Source: Acidovorax radicis (GTDB taxonomy: Bacteria; Pseudomonadota; Gammaproteobacteria; Burkholderiales; Burkholderiaceae_C). From it: a stretch of 64,000 nt of DNA. Positions 5,436 through 60,140 of the stretch are shown one piece after another. The stretch is taken from contig NZ_CP075184.1 of assembly GCF_020510705.1 (NCBI RefSeq), forward strand, positions 1,922,001-1,986,000. The letters run 5' to 3'. A program made the position numbers and the translations under genes. How positions within the stretch are numbered: the first letter of the stretch is position 1; each line of letters begins with the position of its first letter. The notes beneath the pieces were generated by a model. It was not told where the DNA came from. It did no database searches and was given only the letters and a program-made list of their open reading frames with translations.

Positions 5436-6613
5436 TGAAACAACGTCTCACTGTTCTGGGATCCACCGGGTCCATTGGCACCAGTACGCTGGATGTACTG
5501 GCGCGCCACCCTGACCGTTTTGAAGTTTTTGCGCTGAGTGCGGCCACGCAGGTGGATTTGATACTCGCCCAATGCGCCCGTTTTCAGCCGCGGTTTGCTG
5601 TGATGGCCAGTGCCCCCCATGCCGCGCTGCTGGCTGAAAAATTGAAGGCAAATGGCCTTCTAACGCAGGTGATACAAGCGCAAGATGCTCTTGAAATGAT
5701 AGCATCGAATCCGGACGTCGATGCCGTCATGGCGGCCATTGTGGGGGCTGCGGGCCTGGCGCCTTGTCTGGCGGCTGCACGCGCAGGCAAGCGATTGCTG
5801 CTGGCCAATAAAGAGGCCCTGGTGGTAGGAGGCGGCTTGTTCATGCAGGCCGTGCGGCAGGGCGGAGCGACCTTGTTGCCGATCGACAGCGAGCATTCCG
5901 CCATCTTCCAATGCCTGCCGGAAGACCCTGCGACTTGGTCTCAGCGTGTTGACAGCATCTTGCTGACGGCGTCGGGTGGCCCATTTCGTCAGCGCGACCC
6001 TGCCACTCTGGCCAAAATCACGCCCGACCAGGCCTGTGCGCACCCCAACTTTTCAATGGGCCGCAAGATCTCGGTGGATTCGGCCACGATGATGAACAAG
6101 GCGCTCGAGGTGATCGAGGCGCGCTGGTTGTTCGACCTGCACCCGGACCAGATCAAGGTGGTGATCCATCCGCAGCAAATCATCCATTCGATGGTGCAGT
6201 TCAAGGACGCTTCGATCCTGGCCCAGTTGGGCACGCCTGACATGCGCGTGCCGATTGCCTGTGGCCTGGCCTGGCCTGAACGTATTGTCAGTGGCGCCAG
6301 CACGCTGGATTTTTCAAAACTGAGTGCCTTGGCATTTGAAGATGCCGATGCCATCCGCTTTCCTGGCTTGCACCTTTCGTGGCAGGCGCTAAAGGCCGTG
6401 GAGGGCACAACCGCCGTGCTGAATGCCGCCAATGAGGTGGCGGTCGGAGCCTTTTTGTCTGGGCGACTGCGGTTTGACCACATCCATGCCGTCAACCTTG
6501 CAACTTTGGACGCGGTCTCACCCTCCAACCCTGATTCGCTGCAGGCGCTGATGGATCTGGACCACCGGGCCCGCGGTGCCGCCGAGCATGTGGCCCACCG
6601 TCTGGCTGCCTGA
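5432..6613 (+). CDS. dxr: 1-deoxy-D-xylulose 5-phosphate reductoisomerase
   Basis: Dxr converts DXP to 2-C-methylerythritol 4-phosphate with NADPH, the second step of the MEP isoprenoid pathway. The 393-residue product has the NADPH loop LGSTGSIGTSTLDVL near residues 8-22, LANKEALVVGG, the metal-binding block LPIDSEHSAIFQCL and the flexible-loop region TASGGPF. The next step to undecaprenyl-PP (uppS) is in the same operon. Two ATG codons abut at 5432; either may be used. A copy of the dispersed palindromic repeat (5650-5705) encodes residues around 74-91. Confidence 0.97.
   Translation: MMKQRLTVLGSTGSIGTSTLDVLARHPDRFEVFALSAATQVDLILAQCARFQPRFAVMASAPHAALLAEKLKANGLLTQVIQAQDALEMIASNPDVDAVMAAIVGAAGLAPCLAAARAGKRLLLANKEALVVGGGLFMQAVRQGGATLLPIDSEHSAIFQCLPEDPATWSQRVDSILLTASGGPFRQRDPATLAKITPDQACAHPNFSMGRKISVDSATMMNKALEVIEARWLFDLHPDQIKVVIHPQQIIHSMVQFKDASILAQLGTPDMRVPIACGLAWPERIVSGASTLDFSKLSALAFEDADAIRFPGLHLSWQALKAVEGTTAVLNAANEVAVGAFLSGRLRFDHIHAVNLATLDAVSPSNPDSLQALMDLDHRARGAAEHVAHRLAA
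5650..5705 (+). repeat. Dispersed palindromic element, copy 1 (inside dxr)
   Basis: A diverged copy with GGCCTTCTAACGC, then GATACAAGCGC and GATGCTCTTGAAATGATAG. It is in plus orientation and read in frame by dxr as LLTQVIQAQDALEMIA. It aligns codon for codon with the copies in lpxB, the SpoU gene, the DUF4149-like gene and the MATE gene. Confidence 0.6.
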
Positions 6614-6643
6614 GTGTTTGAGACATCACAGATTTTGCCGCCC

Positions 6644-8008
6644 ATGTTGTTGACCCTCGTTGCATTTGTTGTGGCTCTTGGCCTTCTGATCGCGGTGCAC
6701 GAGTACGGCCATTACCGCGTGGCAGTGGCTTGCGGCGTGAAGGTGTTGCGGTTTTCTGTGGGTTTTGGAATGCCCTTGCTGCGCTGGCAACCGAAGGGTT
6801 CGCCAACCGAATTTGTATTGGGGTCTTTCCCATTGGGCGGGTATGTGCGCATGCTGGATGAGCGCGAGGCGCCCGTGCCCGCTGAAGAGCGCCACCTGGC
6901 ATTCAATACCCAGCCCTTGCTTTCACGCGCGGCGATTGTTGCCGCCGGGCCCATTGCCAACCTGTTGCTCGCCGTTGTCCTTTATTCCATCGTGAACTGG
7001 AATGGTGTCCAGGAACCGCGTGCTGTCTTAGCCAGTCCTGTGGCGGGCTCTGTGGCCCAGGGTGCCGGGTTGCGGGGCGGAGAGGTTGTCGATCAGGCAG
7101 CCCTAGGCTCCGATGAGCTGGAGCCTGTCCGGTCATTTGAAGATTTGCGCTGGCTGTTGACGCGTGGTGCTTTGGAAGGTGTAACGGTCCGGCTGGATGT
7201 GCGCTCTTCTAACGGCGCGGGGCACCGGGAGGTCTTGCTCGACATGGCCGAAATCAACAGCCGCGAGGCCGATGCCCAGCTTTTCCGCAAGATCGGCATT
7301 CTGGGCCCCTGGACACGCCCCGTGTTGGGCGAGGTGATGCCTCAGAGTGCTGCCGAGCGTGCAGGGTTGCGGCAGGGCGATGTGGTTCTTCAGGTAGGTG
7401 CCACTGAGGTGGTGGATGGTCAACAGCTGCGCGAACTGATCCGGCAGTCAGTGCGCGGGACCGAGCCATTGGTGCAGCCATGGCGCATTGAGCGCGCGGG
7501 GCAGTCCATGACCCTGGACGTGCGGCCCGACGCGGTCGTGGAACCGGCCGCCACGGTGGGGCGCATTGGTGCATACGTTGGGGCGGCCCCCGAGTTTGTG
7601 ACGGTCGATTACGGGCTGTGGGAAGGTGCGTGGGGCGGCGTCGTCAAGACGTGGGATGTTTCGGTTCTCACGCTGCGCATGATGGGCCGCATGGTGATCG
7701 GCGAAGCCTCCCTCAAGAATCTGAGTGGACCGTTGACGATTGCAGACTATGCGGGTCGGTCGGCCAGCATGGGTCTCACTCAGTATCTGGTATTTCTTGC
7801 GCTGATCAGCGTAAGTCTGGGGGTTCTCAACCTGCTTCCGCTCCCCGTTTTGGACGGGGGGCACCTGATGTATTATCTTTGGGAGGGTGTCACGGGCAGG
7901 GGAGTGTCGGACGCATGGATGGAGCGTCTGCAGCGCGGAGGTGTTGCAGTCTTGCTTCTCATGATGTCAATTGCCCTGTTCAACGATATCACCCGGCTCT
8001 TTGGCTAA
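6644..8008 (+). CDS. rseP: RIP metalloprotease RseP (site-2 protease)
   Basis: RseP is an inner-membrane zinc protease that cuts anti-sigma-E factor RseA and remnant signal peptides inside the membrane. The 454-residue protein has HEYGH (residues 19-23) in the first membrane helix, FSVGFGMPLLRW, two PDZ domains in the middle, and NLLPLPVLDGGHL near the C-terminus supplying the third zinc ligand. A GTG at 6614 directly after the dxr stop would add ten residues; the ATG at 6644 fits family N-termini better. It is followed by bamA, matching the usual envelope cluster. Confidence 0.95.
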   Translation: MLLTLVAFVVALGLLIAVHEYGHYRVAVACGVKVLRFSVGFGMPLLRWQPKGSPTEFVLGSFPLGGYVRMLDEREAPVPAEERHLAFNTQPLLSRAAIVAAGPIANLLLAVVLYSIVNWNGVQEPRAVLASPVAGSVAQGAGLRGGEVVDQAALGSDELEPVRSFEDLRWLLTRGALEGVTVRLDVRSSNGAGHREVLLDMAEINSREADAQLFRKIGILGPWTRPVLGEVMPQSAAERAGLRQGDVVLQVGATEVVDGQQLRELIRQSVRGTEPLVQPWRIERAGQSMTLDVRPDAVVEPAATVGRIGAYVGAAPEFVTVDYGLWEGAWGGVVKTWDVSVLTLRMMGRMVIGEASLKNLSGPLTIADYAGRSASMGLTQYLVFLALISVSLGVLNLLPLPVLDGGHLMYYLWEGVTGRGVSDAWMERLQRGGVAVLLLMMSIALFNDITRLFG

Positions 8009-8050
8009 CCTTATGCCGCTTGCCATGCAACAGCGGTTTCCGCTTCACTC

Positions 8051-10869: not shown

Positions 10870-10890
10870 GTCCCTGCAGGCAGGTGACGC

Positions 10891-11871: not shown

Positions 11872-11887
11872 ACGGAAGAACAACTCG

Positions 11888-12328: not shown

Positions 12329-12348
12329 ACGGATCTGACGGAGCCCTG

Positions 12349-13143: not shown

Positions 13144-13164
13144 TGCGCCAGTGATGGGGCGGAG

Positions 13165-14331
13165 ATGATGAATGCTGTTCCCCGTGTTGCCATGGTGGCG
13201 GGCGAGACATCGGGTGATTTGCTGGCCGGTTTGCTCATTGACGGCATGTTGGCCCATTGGCCGGGTTTGCAGTCCAGTGGCATCGGTGGCCCGCAAATGG
13301 AGCGCCGGGGGTTCGCAGCATGGTGGCCGAGCGAGAAGCTGGCCGTGCATGGCTACAGCATGGAGGTGCTGCGCAGGTTGCGTGAGCTGCTCTCGATTCG
13401 CAAACAATTGCGCACCCGCTTGCTGCGCGACCGCCCGGACGTTTTTATTGGGGTAGACGCCCCTGACTTCAATTTGGGCCTGGAAGCGGATTTGCGGGCT
13501 GCAGGCATCAAGACCGTGCATTTTGTGTGTCCGTCCATCTGGGCCTGGCGTGCCGACCGCGTCGAGAAGATCCGGCGCAGCGCCGATCACGTGTTGTGCA
13601 TCTTTCCTTTTGAGCCCGAGCTTCTCGCGCAGCATGGCATTGCGGCCACGTATGTGGGGCACCCGCTGGCCGGGGTGATTCCCATGGTGCCCGATCGTGC
13701 TGCCGCCCGTGCGCAGTTGGGTCTGCAGGATTCGGATGAGGTGCTGGCGATCCTGCCAGGCAGCCGGTCCTCTGAAATCCAGTACATTACCCAACCATTT
13801 TTTGAGGCTGCAGCGCTTATCCGACAAGCGCGACCAGCTATTAAATTGGTAGTGCCTGCAGTGCCGGCCTTGCGGGCTCGGATTGAACAAACCGCCCACG
13901 CCTGTGGTTTGGCAGGTGCTGTGCAGATTGTTGAAGGGCAGTCGCATGCGGTGCTTGCCGCCTGCGATACCACGCTCATCGCCAGTGGCACGGCCACGCT
14001 GGAGGCGGCACTTTTCAAGTGCCCCATGGTGATTGGCTATCGGATGCAATCGCTGAGCTGGTGGCTCATGCGCCGCAAGCAGTTGCAGCCTTGGGTGGGT
14101 TTGCCCAACATCCTCTGTGGAGAGTTTGTGGTGCCCGAACTGATACAGGATGCCGCGACCCCTCAGGCGCTATGTGCAGCGACGCTCGATTGGCTGGATG
14201 CACGGCGGAGCAACGCCCCGAAAATGACCGCGCTGGTGCAGCGCTTTACCGCGCTGCACCACAGCTTGCAGCGCAATACCCCTCAACTGGCTGCCGATGC
14301 GATCCAGAAAATCCTTGCCACTGGTGCCTGA
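13165..14331 (+). CDS. lpxB: Lipid-A-disaccharide synthase
   Basis: LpxB is the peripheral inner-membrane GT19 enzyme joining UDP-diacyl-GlcN and lipid X into the lipid A disaccharide. The 388-residue protein has [17 protein letters not shown] at the N-terminus, [17 protein letters not shown] near residue 120, FPFEPELL and the nucleotide-binding block [10 protein letters not shown] near residue 195. The ATG pair at 13165/13168 follows GGGGCGGAG closely; the second may be the true start. Residues about 212-229 are encoded by a copy of the dispersed palindromic repeat (13798-13852). Confidence 0.96.
13798..13852 (+). repeat. Dispersed palindromic element, copy 2 (inside lpxB)
   Basis: A well-preserved copy reading CAGCGCTTATCCGACAAGCG, then CCAGCTATTAAATTGGTAG. 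It is in plus orientation and read by lpxB in frame as [15 protein letters not shown]. It shares its reading register with the four other coding-strand copies. Confidence 0.8.
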
Positions 14332-14948: not shown

Positions 14949-15722
14949 ATGACTTCAGCGCCCGTTATTGCCATTCATTCCCGCGACAACCCGTTTGTCA
15001 AAGACCTGCGCCGGCTGGCGCAAGACTCGACCGCCTACCGCAAGCAAGGCCGCGTATGGCTGGAGGGAGATCACCTGTGCCGTGCGGCGCTGGCGCGTGG
15101 TCTGCGGGCATCGGTGGCGGTGTTTTCAGAGTCTTTTTGGCCGCTAGCGCAGGTGGAATATGCGCAAGCTGCTATCAAAACAGTAGTTCTCGCTGATGCA
15201 TTGTTTGCGGATATCAGCGGCCTGGAGTCCCCCGCGCGCATGGGCTTTGTCATGGACCTTCCCGCACCTGCTGCCCTCCGGCCAGACGCGCCAACGGTGG
15301 TGCTCGACCGTGTGCAGGATGCCGGCAACGTGGGCTCCATCCTGCGCAGCGCTTCGGCATTCGGATTCCGGCAGGTGGTGGCCATCAAGGGGAGTGCGGC
15401 GCTGTGGTCGCCCAAGGTTTTGCGGGCCGGAATGGGCGCGCATTTTGCGCTGGAGCTGATCGAGGGCATGGAGCACAGTGATCTGGATGGGCTTGGGCTG
15501 CCCATGCTTGTCACCAGTTCGCACGAGGGGGATTATTTGCATCGCGCTGCGCTGCCATGGCCTTGTGCCTGGGTTTTGGGGCACGAAGGGCAGGGCGTGT
15601 CGCCCGTCCTGGAGGCGCGGGCCAGCTTGCGCATCCGCATTGCGCAGCCAGGCGGCGAAGAGTCACTGAACGTGGCAGCGGCGGCCGCAATCTGCCTGCA
15701 TGCGAGCGGGGCCGGGCGCTAG
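14949..15722 (+). CDS. TrmH/SpoU family RNA 2'-O-ribose methyltransferase
   Basis: This SPOUT-fold enzyme methylates ribose 2'-OH groups of rRNA or tRNA using SAM; the exact target site cannot be assigned. The 257-residue protein has an N-terminal substrate-binding domain (VKDLRRLAQDSTAYRKQGRVWLEGDH). The catalytic domain holds motif 1 DRVQDAGNVGSILRSASAFG, motif 2 LGHEGQGVSP and motif 3 IAQPGGEESLNVAAAAAI, all intact. The start at 14949 is chosen because the frame upstream belongs to antisense-like sequence in rnhB. A dispersed palindromic repeat (15133-15186) is read through around residues 62-79. Confidence 0.92.
   Translation: MTSAPVIAIHSRDNPFVKDLRRLAQDSTAYRKQGRVWLEGDHLCRAALARGLRASVAVFSESFWPLAQVEYAQAAIKTVVLADALFADISGLESPARMGFVMDLPAPAALRPDAPTVVLDRVQDAGNVGSILRSASAFGFRQVVAIKGSAALWSPKVLRAGMGAHFALELIEGMEHSDLDGLGLPMLVTSSHEGDYLHRAALPWPCAWVLGHEGQGVSPVLEARASLRIRIAQPGGEESLNVAAAAAICLHASGAGR
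15133..15186 (+). repeat. Dispersed palindromic element, copy 3 (inside the SpoU gene)
   Basis: The copy reads GGCCGCTAGCGC, then ATGCGCAAGCTGCTATC and AAAACAGTAG. It is plus orientation and translated in frame as PLAQVEYAQAAIKTVV, in the same register as copies 1, 2, 4 and 6. Confidence 0.75.
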
Positions 15723-21137: not shown

Positions 21138-21587
21138 ATGCGTGCTCGTTTTCCTGCCCTGGTTGCTGCCTTGTGGTGGGGGAGCCTGACCACCATAGGC
21201 TTTCTTGCTGTCCCCATGCTTTTTGCCAACCTGCCGTCGCCAGCCATGGCTGGTGCGATGGCCGCAAAACTGTTTGCGGCGCAGACTTGGGTTGCCGTAG
21301 TGTGTTGTGTTGTACTGCTACTGGTTTCAAGGCCAAAAGGCGCTGTAGTGCAATACCAATGGGCGCAAGCAGCTATGCTTTTTATAGTGGGTGGCATGCT
21401 GCTGGCATTGTTGAATCAGTTTGGCGTGGCCCCCCGCATCGTGGCCCGCCAGGACCTGCGTTTATGGCACGGCGTGGGCACGGCCATGTATGCATTGCAG
21501 TGGTGCTGCGCGCTGTGGGTGTTGTGGCACACCTTGGCACAGGGCTCCGCCAATGTGCCGCTGCAGGAGCTTTCACGGAGTGACTAA
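21138..21587 (+). CDS. DUF4149-like small integral membrane protein
   Basis: A 149-residue protein of unknown function with about four membrane segments: VAALWWGSLTTIGFLAVPML, AAQTWVAVVCCVVLLLV, AAMLFIVGGMLLALLNQFG and ALQWCCALWVLWHTLA. The arrangement and the GSLTTIGFLAVPMLFANL start resemble the DUF4149 family found next to greA or yhbY in Burkholderiales. It follows greA by 14 bp and is likely cotranscribed. A dispersed palindromic repeat (21331-21388) encodes the loop and start of the third membrane helix. Confidence 0.75.
   Translation: MRARFPALVAALWWGSLTTIGFLAVPMLFANLPSPAMAGAMAAKLFAAQTWVAVVCCVVLLLVSRPKGAVVQYQWAQAAMLFIVGGMLLALLNQFGVAPRIVARQDLRLWHGVGTAMYALQWCCALWVLWHTLAQGSANVPLQELSRSD
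21331..21388 (+). repeat. Dispersed palindromic element, copy 4 (inside the DUF4149-like gene)
   Basis: The copy reads CCAAAAGGCGCTGTAG, then GGGCGCAAGCAGCTATG and TTTTTATAG. It is plus orientation and translated in frame as GAVVQYQWAQAAMLFIV, aligned by codon with copies 1, 2, 3 and 6. Confidence 0.7.
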
Positions 21588-25827: not shown

Positions 25828-25850
25828 ACGGGGCCTTGTGCCCCGTTTTT
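25828..25850 (+). terminator. Rho-independent terminator after ftsH
   Basis: ACGGGGC (25828-25834) pairs with GCCCCGT (25840-25846) over a five-base loop, and the T-run continues to 25850. It separates ftsH from folP. Confidence 0.88.
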
Positions 25851-25925
25851 CACGCCTGCCAATTTCATTTCTTTTTTATCGATGGTGCTGCCAGTGGTCC
25901 CCCATCTCTTCATCTCGACAGCTTC

Positions 25926-26756
25926 ATGATCTGGCAAACGTCCCGCTTCTCGATCGACCTGGGGTCGCCCCGCGTTATGGGCATTGTGAACGTCACGCCA
26001 GATTCTTTTTCTGACGGCGGGCGTCATGGTTCGCTGGCTGGGGCCTTGAGGCACTGCGAGCAGCTCCTCAAAGAGGGGGCTCATATCCTGGATGTCGGAG
26101 GCGAGTCCACGCGGCCTGGCAGCCCTCCGGTGCCGCTTGATGAGGAGCTAGCCCGCGTAGTCCCACTGGTGCGCGATGCCGTTTCACTGGGCGTCCCTAT
26201 TTCGGTGGACACTTACAAACCCGAAGTCATGCAAGCGGTATTGGATCTGGGCGCCGATATCGTCAATGACATCTGGGCATTGCGGCAACCAGGGGCCGCC
26301 GCAGTGGTAGCAGGGCACCCGCGTTGTGGCGTGTGCCTGATGCACATGCATGGTGAGCCGCTGACCATGCAGACAGCTCTCATGAATGGCGATATAGGGC
26401 CGCAGGTGCTCTCATTTTTAGAGCATTCAGCGCTTTCTATACAAGCGCTAGGGGTCGAAAAGAATCGTATTGTTCTTGACCCCGGAGTTGGCTTTGGAAA
26501 AACGGTACCGCAGAATTTTTCATTGCTCGCAAATCAATCGATGCTGTTGGCTGGGGGCTACCCACTGCTGGTGGGGTGGTCGCGCAAGTCATCATTGGGT
26601 GCCGTGACAGGCCTCGACGTGGAGCACCGCATGGTGCCCAGTGTGGCCGCCGCCATGTTGGCCGTAGAACGGGGCGCGTCAGTGGTTCGAGTGCACGACG
26701 TCCGCGAAACGGTGGCTGCATTGGCAGTGTGGAGCGCCGCGCAAGCCGGTAGCTGA
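25926..26756 (+). CDS. folP: Dihydropteroate synthase
   Basis: FolP condenses p-aminobenzoate with dihydropterin pyrophosphate in folate synthesis and is the sulfonamide target. The 276-residue TIM-barrel protein has VMGIVNVTPDSFSDGGRH, LDVGGESTRPGSPPV, ADIVNDIWALR and IVLDPGVGFGKTVPQNFSLL, the usual pterin and pABA blocks. The ATG at 25926 is used; an earlier in-frame ATG at 25836 falls inside the ftsH terminator. A dispersed palindromic repeat in reverse orientation (26408-26457) encodes the helix before LDPGVGFGK. Confidence 0.96.
   Translation: MIWQTSRFSIDLGSPRVMGIVNVTPDSFSDGGRHGSLAGALRHCEQLLKEGAHILDVGGESTRPGSPPVPLDEELARVVPLVRDAVSLGVPISVDTYKPEVMQAVLDLGADIVNDIWALRQPGAAAVVAGHPRCGVCLMHMHGEPLTMQTALMNGDIGPQVLSFLEHSALSIQALGVEKNRIVLDPGVGFGKTVPQNFSLLANQSMLLAGGYPLLVGWSRKSSLGAVTGLDVEHRMVPSVAAAMLAVERGASVVRVHDVRETVAALAVWSAAQAGS
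26408..26457 (-). repeat. Dispersed palindromic element, copy 5 (inside folP, reverse orientation)
   Basis: On the plus strand it reads TTTTTAGAGCATTCAGCGCT, then ATACAAGCGCTAGGGG, which is the element in reverse relative to copies 1-4. folP reads it in frame as LEHSALSIQALG. The addA copy, also reversed relative to its gene, is read in the same register. Confidence 0.75.
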
Positions 26757-45531: not shown

Positions 45532-46852
45532 TGGCACGCCACAGCATGGTGGCAAATAGCGCAGCGGTCACTGCCAGTGCGGTGGCGCTTGTTGCCCAAA
45601 AAGGTGTGGGTGAGGGGACGGCGGCCCAGGGCCCGTGGCCTTCGTAAGCGAGCACATAACCGCCGCCCAGGCCTGCGCCCCATAACAAGGTGCAATACAC
45701 AGCCAGCGGCGCGATCGTGATTCGGTAGCAGCGCAGCACAAACACGCACAGGGTCTGAATGGCGTCTGCACTGTGGTATGCAGCCACCCACACCAGCACC
45801 CCGCTGGCCATTGCCACCACACTGGCATTGCTGGTGTAGATGTAGCCGATGTGATTTTTTACTATCAATAGGATAGCTGCTAGCGCAATACCGATAAGCG
45901 CTGAGAGCTTAAAACCCATTAAAACTACGGCACGTGCGCGCAGGGCGTCGCCTGCACCCAGCCAATAGCTGACCCGCGCACTGGTGGCAATGGCCAGTGA
46001 CAGCGGAACCATGTAGAGCACCGCCGCCAAATTCGATGCAATCTGGTGCGCGGCAGAGGCCGTGGTTCCCTGGCGTGCGATGAACAATGCCATCAAGGTG
46101 AAGGATGTCACTTCCACCATGACTGCCAGCCCTGCCGGGATACCCTGCCTTGCAAAGTTGGCAAGCGTTGGCCAGTGCGGGGGCTCCATGCGTCGCCACA
46201 GACCCAATGGCGCATAGAGCGACTGCGTGCGCAGCAGCCAGATCGCCAAGGTCAGCATGCTGACGTTGACGACGAGCGTGGCCCACGCACACCCGACGAC
46301 ACCCAGGGCCGGCAAGCCCGTGCCGCCGAAGGTGAACCATATCGACAGCGGCAGCTTGATGCACAACGAGCCCACCTGCAGCCAGGTCACCAGCTGTGGG
46401 CGACCCAGCGCCTGGTTGAGTGTGCTGTAAACGCGAAACAACAATGCGGGGGGCAGGGCCATGGCCAGCACTGCGAGGTAGTTTTCCACCTCCGTGCGTA
46501 GGGCTGCGGGCACCTCGGTCCAGCGCAGCACGGGGCCCGGAAACAGCAAGATCGTCATGCCGATGACCGAGGCCGCCACGCACAGGTAAAGAGACTGTCG
46601 CAGCGAACGGCCCACGTCTTTGGTCTCACGGGCTCCGTGCAGCTCTGCCCACACGGGCATCAAGGCCTGGAGCACGCCGATCAGTGCAACGTACACACTG
46701 ACGAAAATCGCGGACCCCACAGACAACGCGGCCAGCGATGACTCGCCATAGCGACCCGCCACGATGGTGTCGATGACGCCAAAGGCCATGACAGCGAGTT
46801 GCCCGGCAAGCACCGTGGTGGCATGCCGTGTAATGGTCGACAGTTCTGACAT
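45485..46852 (-). CDS. MATE family efflux transporter
   Basis: A 455-residue inner-membrane antiporter of the NorM type, moving cationic drugs out against sodium or protons. It shows about twelve membrane helices in two similar halves, including AVMAFGVIDTIVAGRYGESSLAALSVGS and ATSARVSYWLGAGDALRARAV, which are family positions. The ATG at 46852 is used; the frame extends further upstream without homology. It is 8 bp downstream of the ArnT-like gene and overlaps phoR by 47 bp tail to tail. A dispersed palindromic repeat (45855-45914) encodes a membrane helix near residue 318. Confidence 0.9.
   Translation of the reverse strand: MSELSTITRHATTVLAGQLAVMAFGVIDTIVAGRYGESSLAALSVGSAIFVSVYVALIGVLQALMPVWAELHGARETKDVGRSLRQSLYLCVAASVIGMTILLFPGPVLRWTEVPAALRTEVENYLAVLAMALPPALLFRVYSTLNQALGRPQLVTWLQVGSLCIKLPLSIWFTFGGTGLPALGVVGCAWATLVVNVSMLTLAIWLLRTQSLYAPLGLWRRMEPPHWPTLANFARQGIPAGLAVMVEVTSFTLMALFIARQGTTASAAHQIASNLAAVLYMVPLSLAIATSARVSYWLGAGDALRARAVVLMGFKLSALIGIALAAILLIVKNHIGYIYTSNASVVAMASGVLVWVAAYHSADAIQTLCVFVLRCYRITIAPLAVYCTLLWGAGLGGGYVLAYEGHGPWAAVPSPTPFWATSATALAVTAALFATMLWRAIKPANPVLAGGLPET
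45855..45914 (-). repeat. Dispersed palindromic element, copy 6 (inside the MATE gene)
   Basis: On the coding (minus) strand it reads CTCTCAGCGCTTATC, then TTGCGCTAGCAGCTATCC and TATTGATAG. It is translated in frame as LSALIGIALAAILLIV, the same register as copies 1-4, here forming part of a membrane helix. Confidence 0.8.
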
Positions 46853-46860
46853 GCGGCAGA

Positions 46861-48597
46861 TCAGCCCGGGGGCTTTTCGGGGGGCCGGTCTGGTGATGCC
46901 GCAGGCGCATCTTTGCGCTTGAACAGCAGCAGAAAGTCTTCCTTGTCGGTGGGGCGGCCAATGGTGGCGGCGGCTTGCCAGAGCGCAGTGTTCACCTTGT
47001 GCTCTGACGGCGGCCACGACCCGATGTTCGCCACGAGCCATTGGCAGTTATCCTGCAGCCCTGCGCGTTCCAGCGTGAGCCCGCCGTGGTACTGCAGCGC
47101 TGCAACCTGAGCCCGGCTCAAGTCCACCGTTTGAATGCAGCCTGGCGCGGGCCCCAGTGCCTGTACAACGCTGCGCACCTGGGCTACGTAGCTGCGTGCA
47201 TAGTCGAGCAGGGGTAGCCATAAGGTCATCAAAAGCAGCCAGCCCAGCGTGGCACCTCCGGCTGGCAATACCAGGCTTTTCCAGATGGGGGCCCGGTTGC
47301 GTGACGCGCGCCACCAGACCAGGCTGCACCAGCCCACGGTGGCGGCCAGTGCTACCACCAGGGCCAGCACCGAGAATTGGGGCACAAAACCCGGCGCCAG
47401 CCTGGCCACGTTGGCGGCGGGCTTGGCGGGCACACCGGTTTGCATGGCAACCCAGATTACCCAGATCGCCAATGCAGACACGGTAAAGAAAAGCAGCGTG
47501 AACCAGTCGATCAGCGCTGCCACGCTTCTGCGCAGCGTGGGCAGCGCAAAAGCTGCCAAAGCGGCCATCGCTGGCAATCCCAGCAGCAGAGCTCGGTCTG
47601 CCGGTTGGGTGGTGATGGTTGCCCCAATGGAAACCGCCGAGAACCACAACGGCAGCAACAAATGCCGGTGGCCGTTGCGACTGAAGATCTGATGGCGCCA
47701 GCGCCACAGCGTCCACAGCGCCATGGGCCATGCCGGCCATCCAAACCACAGCAGCAGCTTCGCAAGGCTTTGCCATTCTTTCGCGTCGACATCGGTGCCC
47801 ACAATTCGCCAGCGCCACAAATCCAGCGCCCAGGCCATCCAGGCCGTGACCAGGATGGCCGCCGCCAGACCCAACGCCCAAGGCATCCCGCGGGCTTTGC
47901 TACCGCCCGGTGCCAAAAACACCAATACCAGGGTGCCTACTCCCAGCAGCGCCGCCAGTGCCGGTGCGCCCGCCAGGGTGAGCCCCACAAGGCCCAGCAC
48001 CAAGGCTATCGCGGGCGCAACGGTGCGGTAGGGCATGGCAGCGGCGGCGAAGAAAAGCAGGGCGGTGCAGTGAAGCTGAACGAGGTAGCTCGTCACCTCA
48101 TGCGACAGCTGCGCCAGACCCAGGCAGGCAATGAGCGCAAGCAGTGCGCCATCGGCAATGGCCCGCGCATAGTCAAGCGGCTGCGCCTCACCACCAAACG
48201 CAAACGCCACGGGTTGAGCGCCCGGGCTGCGGGCGAGGTAATACACGCTGTACCAGGTGGCGATCAGCGTGATGGCCAGCAACAGGGCGAACGGAATGCG
48301 TACCGCCATCTCCGCCGACAGCCAGGGTGGTGCCATCTGAATAGCCCACGCACCCAGCCAATACGGCAGCAGACCCTCGGTGTCCGGCGCCATGCCGCCG
48401 AGCAAAGGGCTCCGCCACGGCGTGTGGCCATGGGCCAGCTCCAGCATGTAGCCAAACGCGCTGACGTCCGCATTTTTCCAGGGGGCGCGGCCGATAAAAC
48501 CGGGTACCACGTAAGCAATACACAGCAGCACAAGCGCCCAGCGGGGAAACGCGCGGACGGCATCTTTGGTAACGATGGCGGGGGTGGGGGGTGTCAC
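46861..48597 (-). CDS. ArnT/PMT-like integral membrane glycosyltransferase
   Basis: A 578-residue polytopic protein with about eleven membrane helices, and a soluble C-terminal domain of roughly 130 residues. The first periplasmic loop RAPWKNADVSAFGYMLELAHG resembles the acidic loop of PMT/ArnT glycosyltransferases that use polyprenyl-phosphate sugars. Such enzymes modify lipid A, glycans or proteins on the outer face of the inner membrane; the sugar and acceptor are unknown. It starts with GTG at 48597 because no ATG is near. The MATE gene follows at 8 bp. Confidence 0.7.
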   Translation of the reverse strand: MTPPTPAIVTKDAVRAFPRWALVLLCIAYVVPGFIGRAPWKNADVSAFGYMLELAHGHTPWRSPLLGGMAPDTEGLLPYWLGAWAIQMAPPWLSAEMAVRIPFALLLAITLIATWYSVYYLARSPGAQPVAFAFGGEAQPLDYARAIADGALLALIACLGLAQLSHEVTSYLVQLHCTALLFFAAAAMPYRTVAPAIALVLGLVGLTLAGAPALAALLGVGTLVLVFLAPGGSKARGMPWALGLAAAILVTAWMAWALDLWRWRIVGTDVDAKEWQSLAKLLLWFGWPAWPMALWTLWRWRHQIFSRNGHRHLLLPLWFSAVSIGATITTQPADRALLLGLPAMAALAAFALPTLRRSVAALIDWFTLLFFTVSALAIWVIWVAMQTGVPAKPAANVARLAPGFVPQFSVLALVVALAATVGWCSLVWWRASRNRAPIWKSLVLPAGGATLGWLLLMTLWLPLLDYARSYVAQVRSVVQALGPAPGCIQTVDLSRAQVAALQYHGGLTLERAGLQDNCQWLVANIGSWPPSEHKVNTALWQAAATIGRPTDKEDFLLLFKRKDAPAASPDRPPEKPPG

Positions 48598-51161: not shown

Positions 51162-53771
51162 GTGACAGAAACCAATCCCACGTTGACCGGTGTGGCCGGG
51201 CCTTGCGACGCTATGACTGTCATAGCGAGAAGTGATCGGTGCGCTGCGTTGTGGCAGCGTGTTTTGCAGGAGGTCGTGGCGCATATGCACCGCCTCAAGG
51301 CGCATCCGGCGCGCACGGTGGTGCTTGTGCCCTATGCACAGCTCATGCCCTGGGCGCAGCGCTACTGGGACATGCACCACACCGACGGCTTTGCCCCCCG
51401 CTTTGAAACCACGCGCAACTGGGCCCAGCAGCTTGCCGCCTTCGTGCCGCAGGGCGACGATCTGGCCGGTGACGTGGCACGCGACACGCTCACCGCACGC
51501 GCGCTGCTCGATCGCGTCGGGCTCTCTGCCCAGCGTGATGTGCTGGCCGTGCCGCTGCAAGAGGCGGCCACCCAGCTCCTGCCCGTTGTGGCTGCGATTG
51601 CGCCAGTGGACAGGGCCGCTTGGGGCCTTCAGGCGCGCAGCCTGCTGCCCGAAGCAGACGAGGGCTCCACGCTGCGTTTTGAAGCCGTCGTGGCCCGCAT
51701 TGCGCTTGAATGGGTGCTGGCCTCGCGCCATGCCACGGACGTGTTGTTCGAACCCGGCGTGCGCTCGTCGGTGGATGCACTGGTCGTGTTGCAGGGGTTT
51801 CAGGTCGAACCGCTGGCGCAGGCGTTGCAGGCCCATTGGGGCGACAGCGCCTTGGCCTGGGCACTGCCGCCCGCAACGCTGGATGGACAACCCCGCGGCC
51901 CGATTGCGCTGCACGTTGCACAGGATGCCGAGGACGAAGCGCAGCGCGCCGCCGCCTGTGTGCTGGCGCACATTGTGGCGGGTCGCACACCGGTGGCGCT
52001 GGCCGCCAACGACCGCGCGCTCACGCGCCGCATCGGCGCGCACCTGGCCAGTGCCGGGGTTGCGGTGCGCGATGAAAACGGCTGGACGCTGTCGACCACG
52101 CGTGCGGCAGCACAGTTGATGGGCGCGCTCAAGGCCTGCGCCTGGGACGCGTCTGCGGACACCCTGCTTGACTGGCTGAAACAGGCCCCCGCTGTGGATC
52201 AGGCGACCATCGACACGCTGGAAAAAACGCTGCGCCGGGCCCAGGTGGCGAGCTGGTCGGCCGCAGTCGCCCGTTCCTGGGCTGGGTCCGGGGCCGACAC
52301 ACCCGCCCTGGCGGCCTGTGTGGCGCTGGCGGAGGGGTGGCGCGAGGGCCTGCGTGCGGCACGCCCGCTGGTGCAGTGGCTGGAGGCCCTGCGTGGCTTG
52401 CTGACGGCCACCGGCCAGTGGGAGGCGCTGTCAGAGGATGCCGCAGGGGCCCGCGTGCTTGCCGTGCTGCGCTTGCAGGCAGGGCAGGGGGTGGAGCTGG
52501 ATGGGTGGGATAGCGCCGGGCGCCGCATGACCTTGGCCGAGTTCACCCGTTGGGCCAACGAGGTGCTGGAGGCGGCCCGTTTTGTGCCCACCCCGCAGGG
52601 CGATGCACCCGTGGTGGTGTTGCCCCTGCCGCAACTGCTGGCCCGGCCCTTTGCTGCGCTGGTGTTGCCCGGCTGCGATGAAAAACGCCTGCAACCCTCG
52701 CCCGAGCCGCTTGGCGACTGGACGCAGGCGCAACGCATGGCCTTGGGCTTGCCCACCCGCGACACGCTCGAAGCCGCGCAGCGCGCCGCATGGGCCCATG
52801 CACTGCAAACGCCTGCGGTGGACCTGCTCTGGCGCACGGGCGATGAGGGCGGCGAGCCCCTGATGGCCAGCCCGCTGGTGCTTGCGCTGCACCTTGCCAA
52901 CGCAGCCCACGAAGGTGTTGACGACCGCAGCCAGCGCCTAGTCACGGCCACGCCCACGCTGCGGCCCATGCCGCATGCCGAGGCGCTGCCGGTGCATCGC
53001 CTGTCGTCCACGGCGTATTCCGACCTGCGGCATTGCCCCTACCGATTTTTTGCCCTGCGCCAGCTCGGCCTGCAAGATGCCGACGAGCTGGCCGCCGAAA
53101 TGGACAAGCGCGACTTTGGCAATTGGCTGCACGCCGTGCTGCAGCATTTTCATGAAGCGCTGCTCGCCGACCCGGAGGACGACACCCTGGCCCGCGTGGC
53201 GCGCATGGACAGTGCCGCACAGGCCGTGACCCAGGAGCAAGGCGTGAACGAAGGGGACTTTTTGCCCTTTGCCGCGGGCTGGCCGCAGGTGCGCGACGGC
53301 TACCTGCGATGGCTGGCGCAACACGAAGCCACGGGCGCCCGTTTTCAGCGGGCCGAGTTGCAGACCACCCAGCCATTGGGCGCGCTGCAGCTGGTGGGCA
53401 CCATCGACCGCATCGATGCGGTCTCGACCACCGGCGAGCCCACTGCGCTGGTCATCGACTACAAAACCGAGAACGACACCGTCACGCGCAAGCGCATCGG
53501 CGCGGGCGCCGAAGACACGCAACTGGCCTTTTACGCCGCGCTGCTGAGCCACGACACGCTGCGTGCTGCCTACGTCAACGTGGGCGAGCGGGGCGAGACG
53601 CAGATGCACGAGCAGGACGACGTGGTGCACCTGCGCGACTTGCTGGTCGAAGGCATACAGCACGACTTTGACCGCATTGCCCAAGGCGCGCCGCTGCCCG
53701 CTTTGGGTGAGGGGGCGGTGTGCGACTACTGCACCGCCCGCGGCTTGTGCCGCAAGGATTTCTGGAAATGA
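51162..53771 (+). CDS. addB: AddB-type subunit of the double-strand-break repair nuclease
   Basis: AddB works with AddA to resect double-strand breaks for RecA loading. The 869-residue protein has a degenerate helicase-like body. A C-terminal PD-(D/E)xK nuclease shows GTIDRIDAVSTTGE and ALVIDYKTE. Four cysteines flank the nuclease, one in LRHCPYRFF and three in VCDYCTARGLC, the arrangement of the AddB iron-sulfur staple. Bacillus AddB is longer; the size fits the beta/alpha-proteobacterial form. It starts with GTG at 51162; an ATG at 51213 is an alternative. Its stop overlaps the addA start. Confidence 0.88.
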   Translation: MTETNPTLTGVAGPCDAMTVIARSDRCAALWQRVLQEVVAHMHRLKAHPARTVVLVPYAQLMPWAQRYWDMHHTDGFAPRFETTRNWAQQLAAFVPQGDDLAGDVARDTLTARALLDRVGLSAQRDVLAVPLQEAATQLLPVVAAIAPVDRAAWGLQARSLLPEADEGSTLRFEAVVARIALEWVLASRHATDVLFEPGVRSSVDALVVLQGFQVEPLAQALQAHWGDSALAWALPPATLDGQPRGPIALHVAQDAEDEAQRAAACVLAHIVAGRTPVALAANDRALTRRIGAHLASAGVAVRDENGWTLSTTRAAAQLMGALKACAWDASADTLLDWLKQAPAVDQATIDTLEKTLRRAQVASWSAAVARSWAGSGADTPALAACVALAEGWREGLRAARPLVQWLEALRGLLTATGQWEALSEDAAGARVLAVLRLQAGQGVELDGWDSAGRRMTLAEFTRWANEVLEAARFVPTPQGDAPVVVLPLPQLLARPFAALVLPGCDEKRLQPSPEPLGDWTQAQRMALGLPTRDTLEAAQRAAWAHALQTPAVDLLWRTGDEGGEPLMASPLVLALHLANAAHEGVDDRSQRLVTATPTLRPMPHAEALPVHRLSSTAYSDLRHCPYRFFALRQLGLQDADELAAEMDKRDFGNWLHAVLQHFHEALLADPEDDTLARVARMDSAAQAVTQEQGVNEGDFLPFAAGWPQVRDGYLRWLAQHEATGARFQRAELQTTQPLGALQLVGTIDRIDAVSTTGEPTALVIDYKTENDTVTRKRIGAGAEDTQLAFYAALLSHDTLRAAYVNVGERGETQMHEQDDVVHLRDLLVEGIQHDFDRIAQGAPLPALGEGAVCDYCTARGLCRKDFWK

Positions 53772-56700
53772 CTGAGGCCCCGCCGGTGACTGCACATTCC
53801 CCCATGACTGCGGCCTACGAACACAATGGCCAGCCCGTCTCGCGCGAGGCCTTTTATGCCATCGCCTGTGATCCTGCGCGCAGCGTGGCGGTGGAGGCCT
53901 GCGCGGGCGCTGGCAAGACCTGGATGCTGGTGTCGCGCATGCTGCGCGCCTTGCTTGACGGCGCTGCGCCGCACGAGATCCTGGCCATCACCTTCACCAA
54001 GAAGGCAGCGGGCGAAATGCGCCAGCGCCTGCAAGAGTGGCTGGAGCAATTTGCCCAGGCCCCGCTCGACACCTTGACCGCCGAGCTGGTTACCAGGGGA
54101 ATCAGCCCCCAACGCGCGCTGGATAAGCGCGAGGCGCTACAAAATCTATACCAACAGATGCTGGCCAGCGGCCGCCCGGCGCAGATCCGCACCTTCCACA
54201 GCTGGTTTGCAGCGCTGCTGGGCACGGCCCCGCTGGCGCTGCTGCAGGCCCAGGGCCTGCCCGCCCACTTTGAGTTGCTTGAAGACGATGCCGAGGCCGT
54301 GCGCGAGGTGTGGGGCCCGTTTTTGCACACCGTGTCTTCCAGCGCCGGGCTGCGGGCCGACTACGAAGCCGTGGTGGCCCAGCACGGGCGCTCGCAAACC
54401 CACAAGGCGCTGGCGGCGGCGCTCGCCAAGCGCGTGGAGTTCGACCTTGCCGACGAAGCCGGTGTGGTGGATGCATCCGTGCCCCCTTTCCAGGTGCAAT
54501 ACCCCGACCTGGCGGGGCTGGATGAACCGGCCGGGGCGCTGCAGGGTGACGCCAGCCACCAGCGCTGGCTCGCGCGGGCCAAGGCGCTGGGGGCCGAATC
54601 CAACAAGACCCCCCAAAAGGCCGCCGACGCCATCATCGATGCGCTGGCCTGCGGCGACCTGAACCAGCGCCTGGACCTGCTGCGCCGTGCGATGTTCGTG
54701 GCCAAGGAAGACCGGCTGTCCAAGAACCTCGAAAAGTTTGCCGCCGCGCAAGAGGCCGAGCCCGAGCTGCAGCGCCTGCTGACCGCCCGCCGCCAGCACG
54801 CGGCCTGGCAACACCAGCAGCGCATGGCCCGCCTGGCGCGTTGCCTGATTGCGGCGTTTGCCGCCGTCAAGCACCAGCACGGCTGGGTGGACATGAACGA
54901 TGTGGAGCGCACCGCGCTGGTCATGCTGGACGATCCCATTCTCTCGGGCTGGGTGCAGGAGCGCCTCGACGCCCGCATCCGCCACCTGCTGGTGGACGAG
55001 TTCCAGGACACCAATCCGCTGCAGTGGCAGGCGCTGCACGCCTGGCTGTCGGGCTATGCGGGCTCGGGCGGCGGCGCCAGTGGCCAGAAGCCGCCCAGCG
55101 TGTTCATCGTGGGCGACCCCAAGCAGAGCATCTACCGCTTTCGCCGTGCCGAGCCGCAGGTGTTCATCGCCGCGCAGGCCTTTGTGCGCGACGGCCTCGG
55201 GGGCGACCTGCTCAGCTGCGACCACACGCGCCGCAACGCCACGGGCGTGATCGCCGCCGTGAACCACGTGATGGGCACCGCCCAGGCTCAGCACGAGACC
55301 AGCGGCTTTCGCGACCACACCACCGAGTCCACAGACCCCGGCGTGTTGCTGCGCCTGCCGGCCATCCTGCCGCCCGATGCCGATGGTGGCGGCAGCACCG
55401 ACCCGCTTGCCTGGCGCGACAGCCTGACCGAGCCGCGCCACGAGCCCGAAGAAACCCAGCGCATGCGCGAATGCACGCAGGCCGCCGCTTGGGTGGCCGC
55501 GCAGATTGCGCAAGGCACGCCGCCCCATGAAGTGCTGGTGCTGGCGCGCAAGCGCGACCGGCTCGCCGCCATGCAAGAGGCGCTGCGTGCCCTGCACCTG
55601 CCCTGCGTGCAGCCCGAAAAGGCCGACCTGTTCGACGCCCCCGAGGTGCAGGACATCGTGGCGCTGCTCGACGCACTTGTGTCCACCGGGCATGACCTTT
55701 CGCTGGCGCGTGCGCTCAAGTCGCCGCTGTTTGGCCTGTCCGATGACGCGCTGGTGGCGTTGGCCGTGTTGCGCCGCCAGCCCGCACATGCAGGCTGCAG
55801 CTGGTTCGATCTGCTTCAAAAAAGTGAGCTGTTGCCGCTTGATACACAAGCGCTAGCGCCTGTTTTGACTCAATACAAAGCCTGGGTAGACACTTTGCCG
55901 CCCCACGATGCCCTGCACGCCATCTACCAGCATGGCGATGTGCTGGCGCGTTTTGCGGCGGCCGCGCCTGCAGCGCAGCGCACGGCGGTGCTGGCCAATC
56001 TGCGCGCGCTGCTGTCGGCCGCGCTGCAGCACGATGGAGGCCGCTATCTCACGCCCTATGCGTTTGTGCGCGCCATGAAAAAAGGTGGCGTGCGCGCGCC
56101 GGGCCGGGTCGATGCGCAGGCCATTCGCCTGCTCACCGTGCACGGCGCCAAGGGGCTGGAGGCCCGCTGCGTGCTGCTGCTCGACACCGACACCCGATCC
56201 CAAAAGGCCGAGACCATGGGCGTGCTGGTGGACTGGCCCGGCGAGCAGGCGGTGCCCACGGGTTTTGTGTTTTTGGCCAGCGAATCGAACCCGCCCCCCA
56301 GCGCCGAGGCCACCCTGGCCGCCGAGCAGCAGGCCCGCCAGCGCGAAGAGCTCAACATGCTCTACGTGGCCATGACGCGGGCCAAACATTGCCTGGCGCT
56401 GTCGGCGGTGCAGCCCTCCACGTCGGCCCCCGGCAGCTGGTGGAACCGACTGGCGCCCGTGGTCGGCGATGTGGTGTGGCCGCCGCCCGAAGGTGCACCC
56501 GACACAACCGGTTCAGGCGACACAACCGGGCAACAGCCCGCAGCACCAGGCCAGCCACACGACCAGTTCACCCTGGCCGAGCTGCCTGTTTTGCCAGCCC
56601 CTCTGCGGGGCTCTTTGCCCGCCACGTCACCCGGCTTGCAGCCAGCGCAGGCAAAGGCCGGGGCTCCGGTGGATGTGACGGTGGCCACCTCTACCGCTAC

Positions 56701-57379
56701 CTCCACCGCCGCATCCCGCCTGGGCGAAGCCATGCACCAATTGCTGGAGCAGGCCGGTGTGGCCGGTGCGGCGCTGGCCGATCTGCGCACGGCGGGCTGG
56801 CCCGCCGTGCGCGTGGCGCGGCTCGCGCAAGATTTCGACATCACACCTGGCGCCGCGCAGCAGGCCGCACACACCGCGCAGCGCATCCTGGCGGGCGAGG
56901 GCGCCTGGGCCTGGGCCCCCGCCGCCGTGGACACCGCCATCAACGAAGCACCGCTGCGCCACCAGGGGCAAAGCCTGCGCCTGGATCGCCTGGTGCATTG
57001 CCACCAGCCGCCCGAGCGCGCGGGCTGGTGGGTGCTGGACTACAAAAGCGCGGCCGAGCCCGAGCGCCAGGCCGTGCTGTTGGCGCAGCTGCAGCGTTAT
57101 CGCGACGCCGTGCAGCTGCAGGTGCCCGGCGAGCCGGTGCATGCCGCGCTGTTGACTGGCGACGGGCGCTTGGTGCGGGTGGCAGCGCGCGCAGCAGCGG
57201 TCGGGCATACTCTCGCCCCCGCTGGCGCTGAGGCTGCCGACACAGCGCCCGCACCGCCAGTGCAGGTGCCAGTACCGGTGCCTGTACCTGTGCCCCAGGC
57301 CCCACCCAGCGCAGCCCACAAAGCGCCACACATTCCCGACGCCAACGACGCCAACGATGTCCAAGGCTCCCTGTTCTGA
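53768..57379 (+). CDS. addA: AddA-type helicase-nuclease subunit (UvrD superfamily)
   Basis: The 1203-residue protein has all SF1A helicase motifs: Q-motif and Walker A EACAGAGKTWMLVSRML, ITFTKKAAGEMRQRL, LLVDEFQDTNPLQWQAL (motif II), GDPKQSIYRFRRAEP (III), LTVHGAKGLEARCVLLLDTD (V) and LNMLYVAMTRAKHCL (VI). A PD-(D/E)xK nuclease ends it (LRLDRLVH, WVLDYKSA, LQRYRDAV). The extreme C-terminus is a Pro-Val repeat tail ending QGSLF. Together with addB this replaces RecBCD. A dispersed palindromic repeat (55815-55868) is read through near residue 690. ATG at 53768 is coupled to addB. Confidence 0.92.
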   Translation: MTEAPPVTAHSPMTAAYEHNGQPVSREAFYAIACDPARSVAVEACAGAGKTWMLVSRMLRALLDGAAPHEILAITFTKKAAGEMRQRLQEWLEQFAQAPLDTLTAELVTRGISPQRALDKREALQNLYQQMLASGRPAQIRTFHSWFAALLGTAPLALLQAQGLPAHFELLEDDAEAVREVWGPFLHTVSSSAGLRADYEAVVAQHGRSQTHKALAAALAKRVEFDLADEAGVVDASVPPFQVQYPDLAGLDEPAGALQGDASHQRWLARAKALGAESNKTPQKAADAIIDALACGDLNQRLDLLRRAMFVAKEDRLSKNLEKFAAAQEAEPELQRLLTARRQHAAWQHQQRMARLARCLIAAFAAVKHQHGWVDMNDVERTALVMLDDPILSGWVQERLDARIRHLLVDEFQDTNPLQWQALHAWLSGYAGSGGGASGQKPPSVFIVGDPKQSIYRFRRAEPQVFIAAQAFVRDGLGGDLLSCDHTRRNATGVIAAVNHVMGTAQAQHETSGFRDHTTESTDPGVLLRLPAILPPDADGGGSTDPLAWRDSLTEPRHEPEETQRMRECTQAAAWVAAQIAQGTPPHEVLVLARKRDRLAAMQEALRALHLPCVQPEKADLFDAPEVQDIVALLDALVSTGHDLSLARALKSPLFGLSDDALVALAVLRRQPAHAGCSWFDLLQKSELLPLDTQALAPVLTQYKAWVDTLPPHDALHAIYQHGDVLARFAAAAPAAQRTAVLANLRALLSAALQHDGGRYLTPYAFVRAMKKGGVRAPGRVDAQAIRLLTVHGAKGLEARCVLLLDTDTRSQKAETMGVLVDWPGEQAVPTGFVFLASESNPPPSAEATLAAEQQARQREELNMLYVAMTRAKHCLALSAVQPSTSAPGSWWNRLAPVVGDVVWPPPEGAPDTTGSGDTTGQQPAAPGQPHDQFTLAELPVLPAPLRGSLPATSPGLQPAQAKAGAPVDVTVATSTATSTAASRLGEAMHQLLEQAGVAGAALADLRTAGWPAVRVARLAQDFDITPGAAQQAAHTAQRILAGEGAWAWAPAAVDTAINEAPLRHQGQSLRLDRLVHCHQPPERAGWWVLDYKSAAEPERQAVLLAQLQRYRDAVQLQVPGEPVHAALLTGDGRLVRVAARAAAVGHTLAPAGAEAADTAPAPPVQVPVPVPVPVPQAPPSAAHKAPHIPDANDANDVQGSLF
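55815..55868 (-). repeat. Dispersed palindromic element, copy 7 (inside addA, reverse orientation)
   Basis: On the plus strand it reads CAAAAAAGTGAGCTGTTGCC, then GCTTGATACACAAGCGCTAG and CGCCTGTTTTG. This is the reverse orientation relative to the gene, as in folP. It is translated as SELLPLDTQALAP, in the same register as the folP copy (EHSALSIQALG). Confidence 0.75.
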
Positions 57380-57406
57380 ACGTATCTGAATCAAAGGTTT
57401 TTACCC

Positions 57407-58840: not shown

Positions 58841-58968
58841 AGAGGTTGTCGTAGGCCCGCCCCTGCTTGCTTCGTGCCCATAGAGGCGGAGGTGGTGGGG
58901 GGTGCTTTCGGCCACAAGCGGCCATCCAAGGCCGACTGCCAACGCCATCAACACAGCATCTCCCACCA

Positions 58969-59292: not shown

Positions 59293-59329
59293 ATTCGCAC
59301 ATCGGCCACAACCGAACAATCAAGATCGA

Positions 59330-59746
59330 ATGGACCACTCGTCATTGCACCCGCTATCACAGGATGTGATTCAGAGATTCGATACCGAAGTGTCGTGGTA
59401 CATCGGCCACGTGCGATCTCTCGCTATGACGCCGAAAGAGTGTTGCGCCGATCAGGACAACTATCTGGTCGCAGGCGAGTTGTTCTACTTCCTGCTCCAG
59501 CCAACATCTCTGCTGACAGATCCTTCCATGCCGCTTTCAGCGGAGCAAAAATCCGCTATCGAAGTGCTACGGCAAAGTGTCCGATCGGTGCCTTTGGACG
59601 CTCGAAGCGGTGGACGAAATGCAGCGGCGTCACTCAAGGACATGCCGCACCCTTCGTGGGAGGCTCCTCGGCAAAGCGTTGCCAAGGTACTCACTGTTTT
59701 GGCGCCACTTCTGGAAGCTCGGGCAGCATGGGGCATGGCCCCTTAG
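59330..59746 (+). CDS. Hypothetical protein
   Basis: A 138-residue soluble protein I do not recognise. It begins MDHSSLHPLSQDVIQRFDTE and contains GHVRSLAMTPKECCADQDNYLVAGELFYFLLQ. No signal peptide or membrane helix is visible. It follows the small phosphatase by 37 bp, so they may share a transcript, and shares its lower GC content. It may have arrived with it. Confidence 0.5.
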   Translation: MDHSSLHPLSQDVIQRFDTEVSWYIGHVRSLAMTPKECCADQDNYLVAGELFYFLLQPTSLLTDPSMPLSAEQKSAIEVLRQSVRSVPLDARSGGRNAAASLKDMPHPSWEAPRQSVAKVLTVLAPLLEARAAWGMAP

Positions 59747-60020
59747 CTGTATCTAAAAGAAGTTTGCTTTCGCTAATTAACAGGGCTTGCTAGATGACCG
59801 CTTTGGAGACGAGCGAATGACCGAGTTGGGCCCCAAGCGACCAGTCGGCGCTTCAAACTCTGTGGGCCAAAAACACCCGCCTGCACGTCGACCATGCGAG
59901 GGGATGCCATTTTCTGGCCCCTCAAAAATGCCTGTTTCCGACCGGGCTCATTCGTCCGGAGTTTGCCTGTTCTGAGCCCGCCAAAAGGGGCGGCAGGCTG
60001 GTTCCATCGAGCGCCTTGGC

Positions 60021-60045
60021 TTCGACAGAACCTCAGCCCGAACGG
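60021..60045 (+). repeat. REP-like sequence, copy A
   Basis: It reads TTCGACAGAACCTCAGCCCG then AACGG. A second similar copy lies inverted at 62910-62932. Both sit outside genes. Confidence 0.5.
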
Positions 60046-60087
60046 ATGGATGAATGGCAGGGCATCTGCGAGCCATAAATATCAAGC

Positions 60088-60140
60088 CAAATCGGCCTCT
60101 AGCGCTTGACGTGTAAGCGGTGGCAGCTATCAATATGAAA
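60088..60140 (+). repeat. Dispersed palindromic element, copy 8 (intergenic)
   Basis: It reads GGCCTCTAGCGCTTGACG, then TGTAAGCGGTGGCAGCTATC. It is the only copy outside a gene and among the best preserved, close to the consensus GGCCTCTAGCGCTT-N7-AAGCGCTAGCAGCTAT. Confidence 0.8.

Follow-up and report, generated by a model that had tools for sequence, protein, structure and literature searches.

A dispersed, uptake-sequence-like motif of about 65 bp that evolves in place in Acidovorax radicis and other Comamonadaceae

The 64,000-nucleotide stretch of the Acidovorax radicis genome analysed here (the window, bases 1922001-1986000 of a single contig of 4,995,154 bp) carries eight clear copies of a near-palindromic motif, about 65 bp long, that lies both inside and between genes throughout the chromosome. 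The motif is real, it evolves in place, and it comes in dialects that differ between groups of genomes. Judging from its sequence and distribution, it is probably an uptake-sequence-like signal spread by biased DNA uptake and recombination. We call it uptake-sequence-like, and not a member of the known classes, because we infer its function only and because its length falls outside the known range.

All eight dispersed copies listed in the initial annotation are present, scoring between 44.4 and 69.6 bits with a weight matrix trained on 51 copies lying outside the window, and nothing in the reversed window exceeded 5 bits with the same matrix. A shorter consensus with up to three mismatches gave nine strand matches at five places of the window, where shuffles would be expected to give 0.08. 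Genome-wide, 308 matches to GCTAGCGCTTN7AAGCGCTAGCAGCTAT were found at up to three mismatches, and 446 strict matches once the first two letters of the pattern were dropped; some places are counted on both strands because of the near-palindromic core. The backward control pattern had no match in the whole genome. A sample of 464 kb, made of 20 evenly spaced 20-kb stretches plus the window, was scanned with the matrix and contained 60 sites (none when reversed), which extrapolates to about 650 sites per genome. Sites were present in 19 of the 21 sampled regions. The only site-free regions were L038 (G000:C1:1850001-1870000) and L039 (2100001-2120000); L038 also has a GC skew of 0.13, which is unusual and could point to acquired DNA.

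The form of about 50 bp first proposed for the copies does recur, but the consensus quoted for it is an average and the conserved span is about 65 bp, composed of AT-rich flanks, GCGC-N11-GCGC and AGCTAT-AAATT-ATAG. The left part consists, in this order, of an AT step, GT, an A- or T-tract, GGCC and (T/G)CTAGCGC. The 11 central bases are usually TT-N7-AA and are followed by GCGCTAGCAGCTAT, an A/T-tract and ATAG. AT-rich positions recur, as judged by eye, about 10, 20 and 30 bases to the left and right of the centre. That the tracts can be runs of either A or T suggests recognition of shape and not of letters. Relative to a 43-base consensus, individual copies show from 3 to over 11 differences, the one at 21331 exceeding the limit of 11. 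The motif holds 57 bits of information, a value inflated by the choice of sites by score, versus the 14 bits needed for locating the sites. In none of four genome groups (60, 24, 17 and 54 sites) did arm complementarity stand out from that of shuffled columns, with total z values of 0.1, -0.6, -0.3 and 1.2 and single pairs reaching 2.6, and one dialect breaks the dyad adjoining the spacer. The ligand is likely double-stranded DNA.

The copies have overwritten existing sequence and were not inserted, as the initial annotation had suspected, since the host genes are unchanged in length and motif-free relatives encode a similar peptide with other codons. Pfam profile alignments cross the host proteins without an extra block (Dxr, 129 residues on 129 positions; LpxB, 372 on 373; FolP, 240 on 244; DUF4149, 100 on 99). 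With frames intact, the copies cannot be said to interrupt genes, and the suggested likeness to Rickettsia palindromic elements fails, since no length has been inserted. The motif region of lpxB was gapless in 38 of 38 genomes examined (the own genome and 37 others, out of the 47 of the genus) with a script that permits substitutions only. Six motif-poor genomes have peptides such as AAALLRKARPNLRMVVPAVP at this place, written in largely different codons and with 14-21 mismatches to the motif, and the 32 motif-bearing genomes have 6-11 mismatches. One of the latter reads GCT GCA GCG CTT ATC CGA CAA GCG CGA CCA GCT ATT AAA TTG, with the residue changes N to A, L to I, R to K and M to L versus four of the six poor genomes; the remaining two, G150 and G157, are intermediate with 14 and 15 mismatches. 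Both synonymous and amino-acid changes spell the motif in lpxB of motif-rich genomes. Furthermore, lpxB mismatches correlate with the copy number of the genome at -0.81 (uncorrected for kinship). The folP alignment was gapless as well in the 12 genomes compared and the gene was respelled as in lpxB; the motif-poor G157 keeps a partial folP site with 11 mismatches. As a side observation, G150 and G157 are nearly motif-free, and their intermediate matches in lpxB, like that of G157 in folP, would fit a motif that has been lost and is decaying.

Comparisons of whole neighbourhoods gave the same picture. In two genomes about 99% identical (G085 and G185, compared over 118.5 kb, L181-L192), 12 of 12 sites are common and gapless. 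These sites and their flanks differ at 23 of 1116 positions (2.1%), and the aligned blocks at about 0.7-0.8%, so that in this pair change is faster in the sites than around them. A further 72 directed comparisons of flanks were made among three genomes about 88-90% identical, with places counted in more than one direction; after exclusion of 21 that lacked flanks and one that was rearranged, 50 could be evaluated. An empty site was found in none of these 50; every span contained a site, with no more than 12 mismatches. The spans were of equal length in 28 cases and differed by fewer than 20 bases in 16 and by 52 to 378 bases in six, and at the loci of these six both genomes still carry a site. 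An insertion model is rejected on the gapless alignments, the unchanged length of the host proteins and the lack of empty sites.

Within the window, the copies on the forward strand are found in dxr, encoding DXP reductoisomerase (5641..5705 in the gene at 5432-6613; 49.8 bits), in lpxB (13791..13855 in 13165-14331; 45.6 bits), in a gene for a SpoU-family rRNA methylase that ends at 15722 (15125..15189; 62.8 bits), in a DUF4149 gene (21326..21390 in 21138-21587; 44.4 bits) and outside the predicted genes (60080..60144; 69.6 bits). The three places first listed at 26408, 45855 and 55815 had been described under one common form with the others and are actually in the opposite orientation. They correspond to minus-strand copies in folP (26406..26470 in 25836-26756, on the strand opposite to the gene; 44.9 bits), in a MATE transporter gene encoded on the minus strand (45859..45923 in 45485-47041; 50.4 bits) and in addA, again on the strand opposite to the gene (55811..55875 in 53720-57379; 51.2 bits). 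For each of the seven host genes 300 synonymous-codon shuffles that kept both protein and codons were made, and the main site scored above all of them in 7 of 7 genes. The best shuffles reached 22.6 bits for dxr, 24.5 for lpxB, 41.3 for the SpoU gene, 31.5 for the DUF4149 gene, 22.7 for folP, 10.8 for the transporter and 24.7 for addA. An artefact of codon use, which had been named as a possible source of the consensus, is rejected by this result. Shuffles of the SpoU gene still score 21 bits on average, which would fit a protein that has itself shifted toward the motif. A weak ninth copy, new here, lies near the start of addA (54090..54154, forward strand; 26.6 bits, 11 mismatches). Alone it is marginal, given that the best addA shuffle reaches 24.7 bits. 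It recurs at the same place in G085 and G185, which also have a site, recognised by eye, at the position of the 55811..55875 copy.

The description of the copies as lying mostly inside genes holds for the window (7 of 8) but not for the genome sample. There, 53 sites with at most 11 mismatches were placed in the 464 kb, of which 86% of the bases are coding; genes contained 15 of them, intergenic DNA 30 and gene edges 8. Two host genes of the window escape the gene caller, which brings the genic sites to at least 17 of 53. Among the 17 best sites (0-4 mismatches), 11 are intergenic, four lie at edges and two fall within frames some 80 codons long. The well-matching copies are for the most part intergenic and gene-internal ones are degraded, as expected if coding constraint opposes the motif.

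A low count of strict matches can mean another spelling rather than fewer sites. The spelling preferred in genomes G166 and G176 is AGCGC-TAGTNNAWCAT-GCGC, and their density is 13.5 sites per 100 kb versus 12.9 in the own genome; across four genome groups with differing consensus it is 12.0-14.3. A pattern neutral to dialect matched 39-501 times in 41 of the 47 genomes of the genus and 0-12 times in the other six (backward control, 0-3). Beyond the genus, 35 of the 150 genomes sampled from the family, the own one included, contain the strict pattern, 21 of them with at least 10 matches. In genus g16, G015 has 434 strict matches and G146 has 12, by dialect or loss. None of the 226 genomes sampled from the class outside the family had the strict pattern, and the backward control gave two single matches. 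Among 24 genomes reached through named loci, six carry the strict pattern: Comamonas testosteroni NFYY023 (96 matches), an unclassified Pseudomonadota metagenome-assembled genome (MAG; 49), Extensimonas (47), Acidovorax sp. HMWF029 (38; the closest named relative among the dxr loci compared, with 89% Dxr identity), a Polaromonas MAG (16) and a Rhodoferax MAG (15). Variovorax EL159 had no strict match; its dxr locus has three matrix sites of 17-31 bits, two of them placed as in relatives. Matrix sites were found in 11 of 80 dxr loci, with three hits in the reversed control (L094, L124).

Several genera have the dxr, lpxB and SpoU sites at matching positions, which indicates that the sites are old and have been respelled more than newly placed. 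Common descent, raised initially as what might explain the similarity, does play a part through these positions, inherited across genera, but the motif-poor relatives lack the letters. At two further places (L060, 4274-4318, and L056, 2925) other core spellings stand beside a kept AGCTAT or GCTAT-AAATT-ATAG-like end. Perhaps the right-hand end is what is shared and older, with the dialect residing in the GCGC part.

We propose that the motif, a double-stranded recognition signal of about 65 bp in about 650 extrapolated copies, would have arisen in place by point substitution. Competent cells would bind and import DNA that carries it, and imported alleles with a better match would replace poorer ones through recombination. 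Under this bias each site, in essential genes too, would approach the consensus within the limits set by the protein. A receptor reading the two GCGC half-sites together with AT-rich steps about one helical turn apart could explain the length, and a change of receptor could explain the dialects. Biased uptake together with recombination is thought to drive the evolution of the known DNA uptake sequences (DUS) and uptake signal sequences (USS). The sites appear moderately denser in DNA shared between genomes, with 65 sites in 423 kb (15.4 per 100 kb, shared sites being counted up to three times) versus 13 in 177 kb (7.4) of unshared DNA, meaning merely unaligned within the compared stretches; the nominal p is 0.013. 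Matches to the motif were found in three of 72,556 plasmid records, in none of 50,697 phage records and in 10 viral stretches, searches that miss degenerate copies. The own genome encodes ComEC, a ComP-family minor pilin beside PilY1 and an HHH_3 domain in a frame of 263 codons, possibly ComEA.

Transformation is also documented in this group. According to passages of a 2014 study (PMC4212676), Acidovorax temperans is transformed only by DNA of its own species, and uptake in Verminephrobacter is selective. The same passages report A. facilis and V. eiseniae as transformable as well, and no transformation was detected in A. defluvii and A. delafieldii (PMC4212676). They mention only short signals of other families and name no signal of the group's own (PMC4212676). 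In the literature searched (subscription papers and preprints outside its scope), neither motif words nor "DNA uptake sequence" with Comamonadaceae retrieved any paper, and no description of the motif was found among the titles and beginnings of abstracts listed.

Several observations weigh against an uptake signal. No enzyme that tracks the repeat was found, as the initial annotation had thought one might: ComEC, HHH_3 and ComP-family genes occur in motif-rich and motif-poor genomes alike. PF03772 was found in 44, PF16732 in 44 and PF12836 in 47 of the 47 genus genomes and none of them separates the two kinds; TIGR00426 reached its cut-off in none of the 47, and its best hits, like those of PF12836, are in frames of about 800 residues (mostly so for TIGR00426). 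The own ComP-family pilin is, by eye, closer to that of the motif-poor G157 than to that of the motif-rich G190. The motif-rich G174 has no folP site (19 mismatches). The V. eiseniae plasmid pVEIS01 (L273), the sole record of that species examined, has no motif site. Known uptake signals measure about 10 bp and the present motif about 65 bp. Orientation is biased too, with 38 of 57 sites following the G-rich strand and 19 opposite to it, and uptake predicts no such bias. Finally, a weak excess of arm complementarity appeared in two of three further genomes (75 strict matches among those listed; G003, z 2.4; G142, z 2.7; G004, z 0.7), the observed value being reached by 14 (G003) and 9 (G142) of 1000 shuffles.

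The strand alignment just mentioned (38 of 57, a mild one) is what a binding site for a chromosome-organising, segregation or replication protein could produce, with selection keeping the sites and dialects following changes in the protein. The length and near symmetry of the motif with its AT-rich steps, its spread over the chromosome (19 of 21 sampled regions) and its scarcity in plasmids and phages agree with such a site as well. Nevertheless, selection at each of about 650 sites would presumably have to be strong enough to alter amino acids in essential enzymes, the information content greatly exceeds the need for locating sites, orientation is far from strict and six species of the same genus manage without the motif, so we consider this explanation unlikely. 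The slight arm excess among the strict copies listed for G003 and G142, the inverted-repeat core and the many intergenic copies could instead point to a structure formed in the single strand, a transcription terminator or a hairpin like that of repetitive extragenic palindromic (REP) elements. Such a hairpin is a very doubtful explanation given that four genome groups have no arm excess and one dialect breaks the dyad, that conservation extends equally to the AT flanks and to AGCTAT-ATAG, which lies outside the stem, and that gene-internal copies lie on either strand.

Replacement without change of length would likewise follow if short gene-conversion tracts moved the motif as a block, making it a selfish element that does not insert. 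Against this patch copying, the sites are inherited in place with scattered substitutions, intermediate matches exist, the letters required by the protein are kept and no abrupt gain of a block was seen in the comparisons made, so that it is highly improbable. A mobile palindromic element inserted in frame, such as a miniature inverted-repeat transposable element or a Rickettsia palindromic element, would account for dispersed near-identical copies in and between genes, but host proteins and aligned sites are unchanged in length and no site was empty, which leaves this idea with practically no likelihood.

Signal-based uptake specificity is firmly known in two bacterial families. We lean towards the view that the Comamonadaceae are a third lineage with an uptake signal, in this case a two-part signal of about 65 bp, the longest of its kind, in several dialects and with AT-rich steps in helix phase, which would have rewritten residues of essential enzymes and would mark DNA of the own kind across several genera. 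The motif is a direct candidate for the signal behind the preference of A. temperans for its own DNA. If this is true, biased transformation can produce a motif of 65 bp hundreds of times over, altering essential proteins, and the motif would serve as a marker of DNA-exchange partners in an abundant environmental family. Even with another function, the evolution of such a length by substitution at about 650 places would be unusual.

Other dispersed sequences resemble the motif in part. HIP1 of cyanobacteria is an over-represented coding palindrome of 8 bp that evolves in place; it differs in being much shorter, far denser and from another phylum. REP elements have hundreds of dispersed palindromic copies, and in both cases the best copies are extragenic, but stem pairing is not clearly kept in the motif, which is also genic. 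Rickettsia palindromic elements are found inside protein genes as well, where they insert in frame and lengthen the proteins, unlike the motif, which brings no change in the length of its hosts. The USS of Pasteurellaceae have a GC-containing core, AT-rich flanks about a helical turn apart and a genic and intergenic distribution, with the 9-bp core on one side; the motif is like them in layout (GC core and AT flanks) and differs in family and sequence. The BRE repeat of Betaproteobacteria is dispersed in Comamonadaceae and relatives, partly in coding sequence, according to the passages of its description used here (PMC3110155). Compared by that description, it is unlike the motif in its length of about 90 bp, its at most 29 copies, and the 69% G+C and frequent tandem arrangement of the Bordetella copies (PMC3110155). 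VeiPR1 of Verminephrobacter eiseniae, again by partial description, is an abundant palindromic repeat amounting to 2.3% of the genome and said to be unique to this species (PMC3975124), and it shares with the motif the condition of an abundant palindrome in a transformable member of the same family. The closest parallel in behaviour is with the DUS of Neisseriaceae, for which parts of the published account describe hundreds to thousands of genic and intergenic copies, clade dialects and evolution in place (PMC3630211). Like them, the motif has copies far above chance, inside and between genes, with clade dialects and substitution in place; unlike DUS, which are about 10 bp long and not dyadic, it is a two-part sequence of about 65 bp, less dense (about 13 per 100 kb) and with a putative role in uptake.

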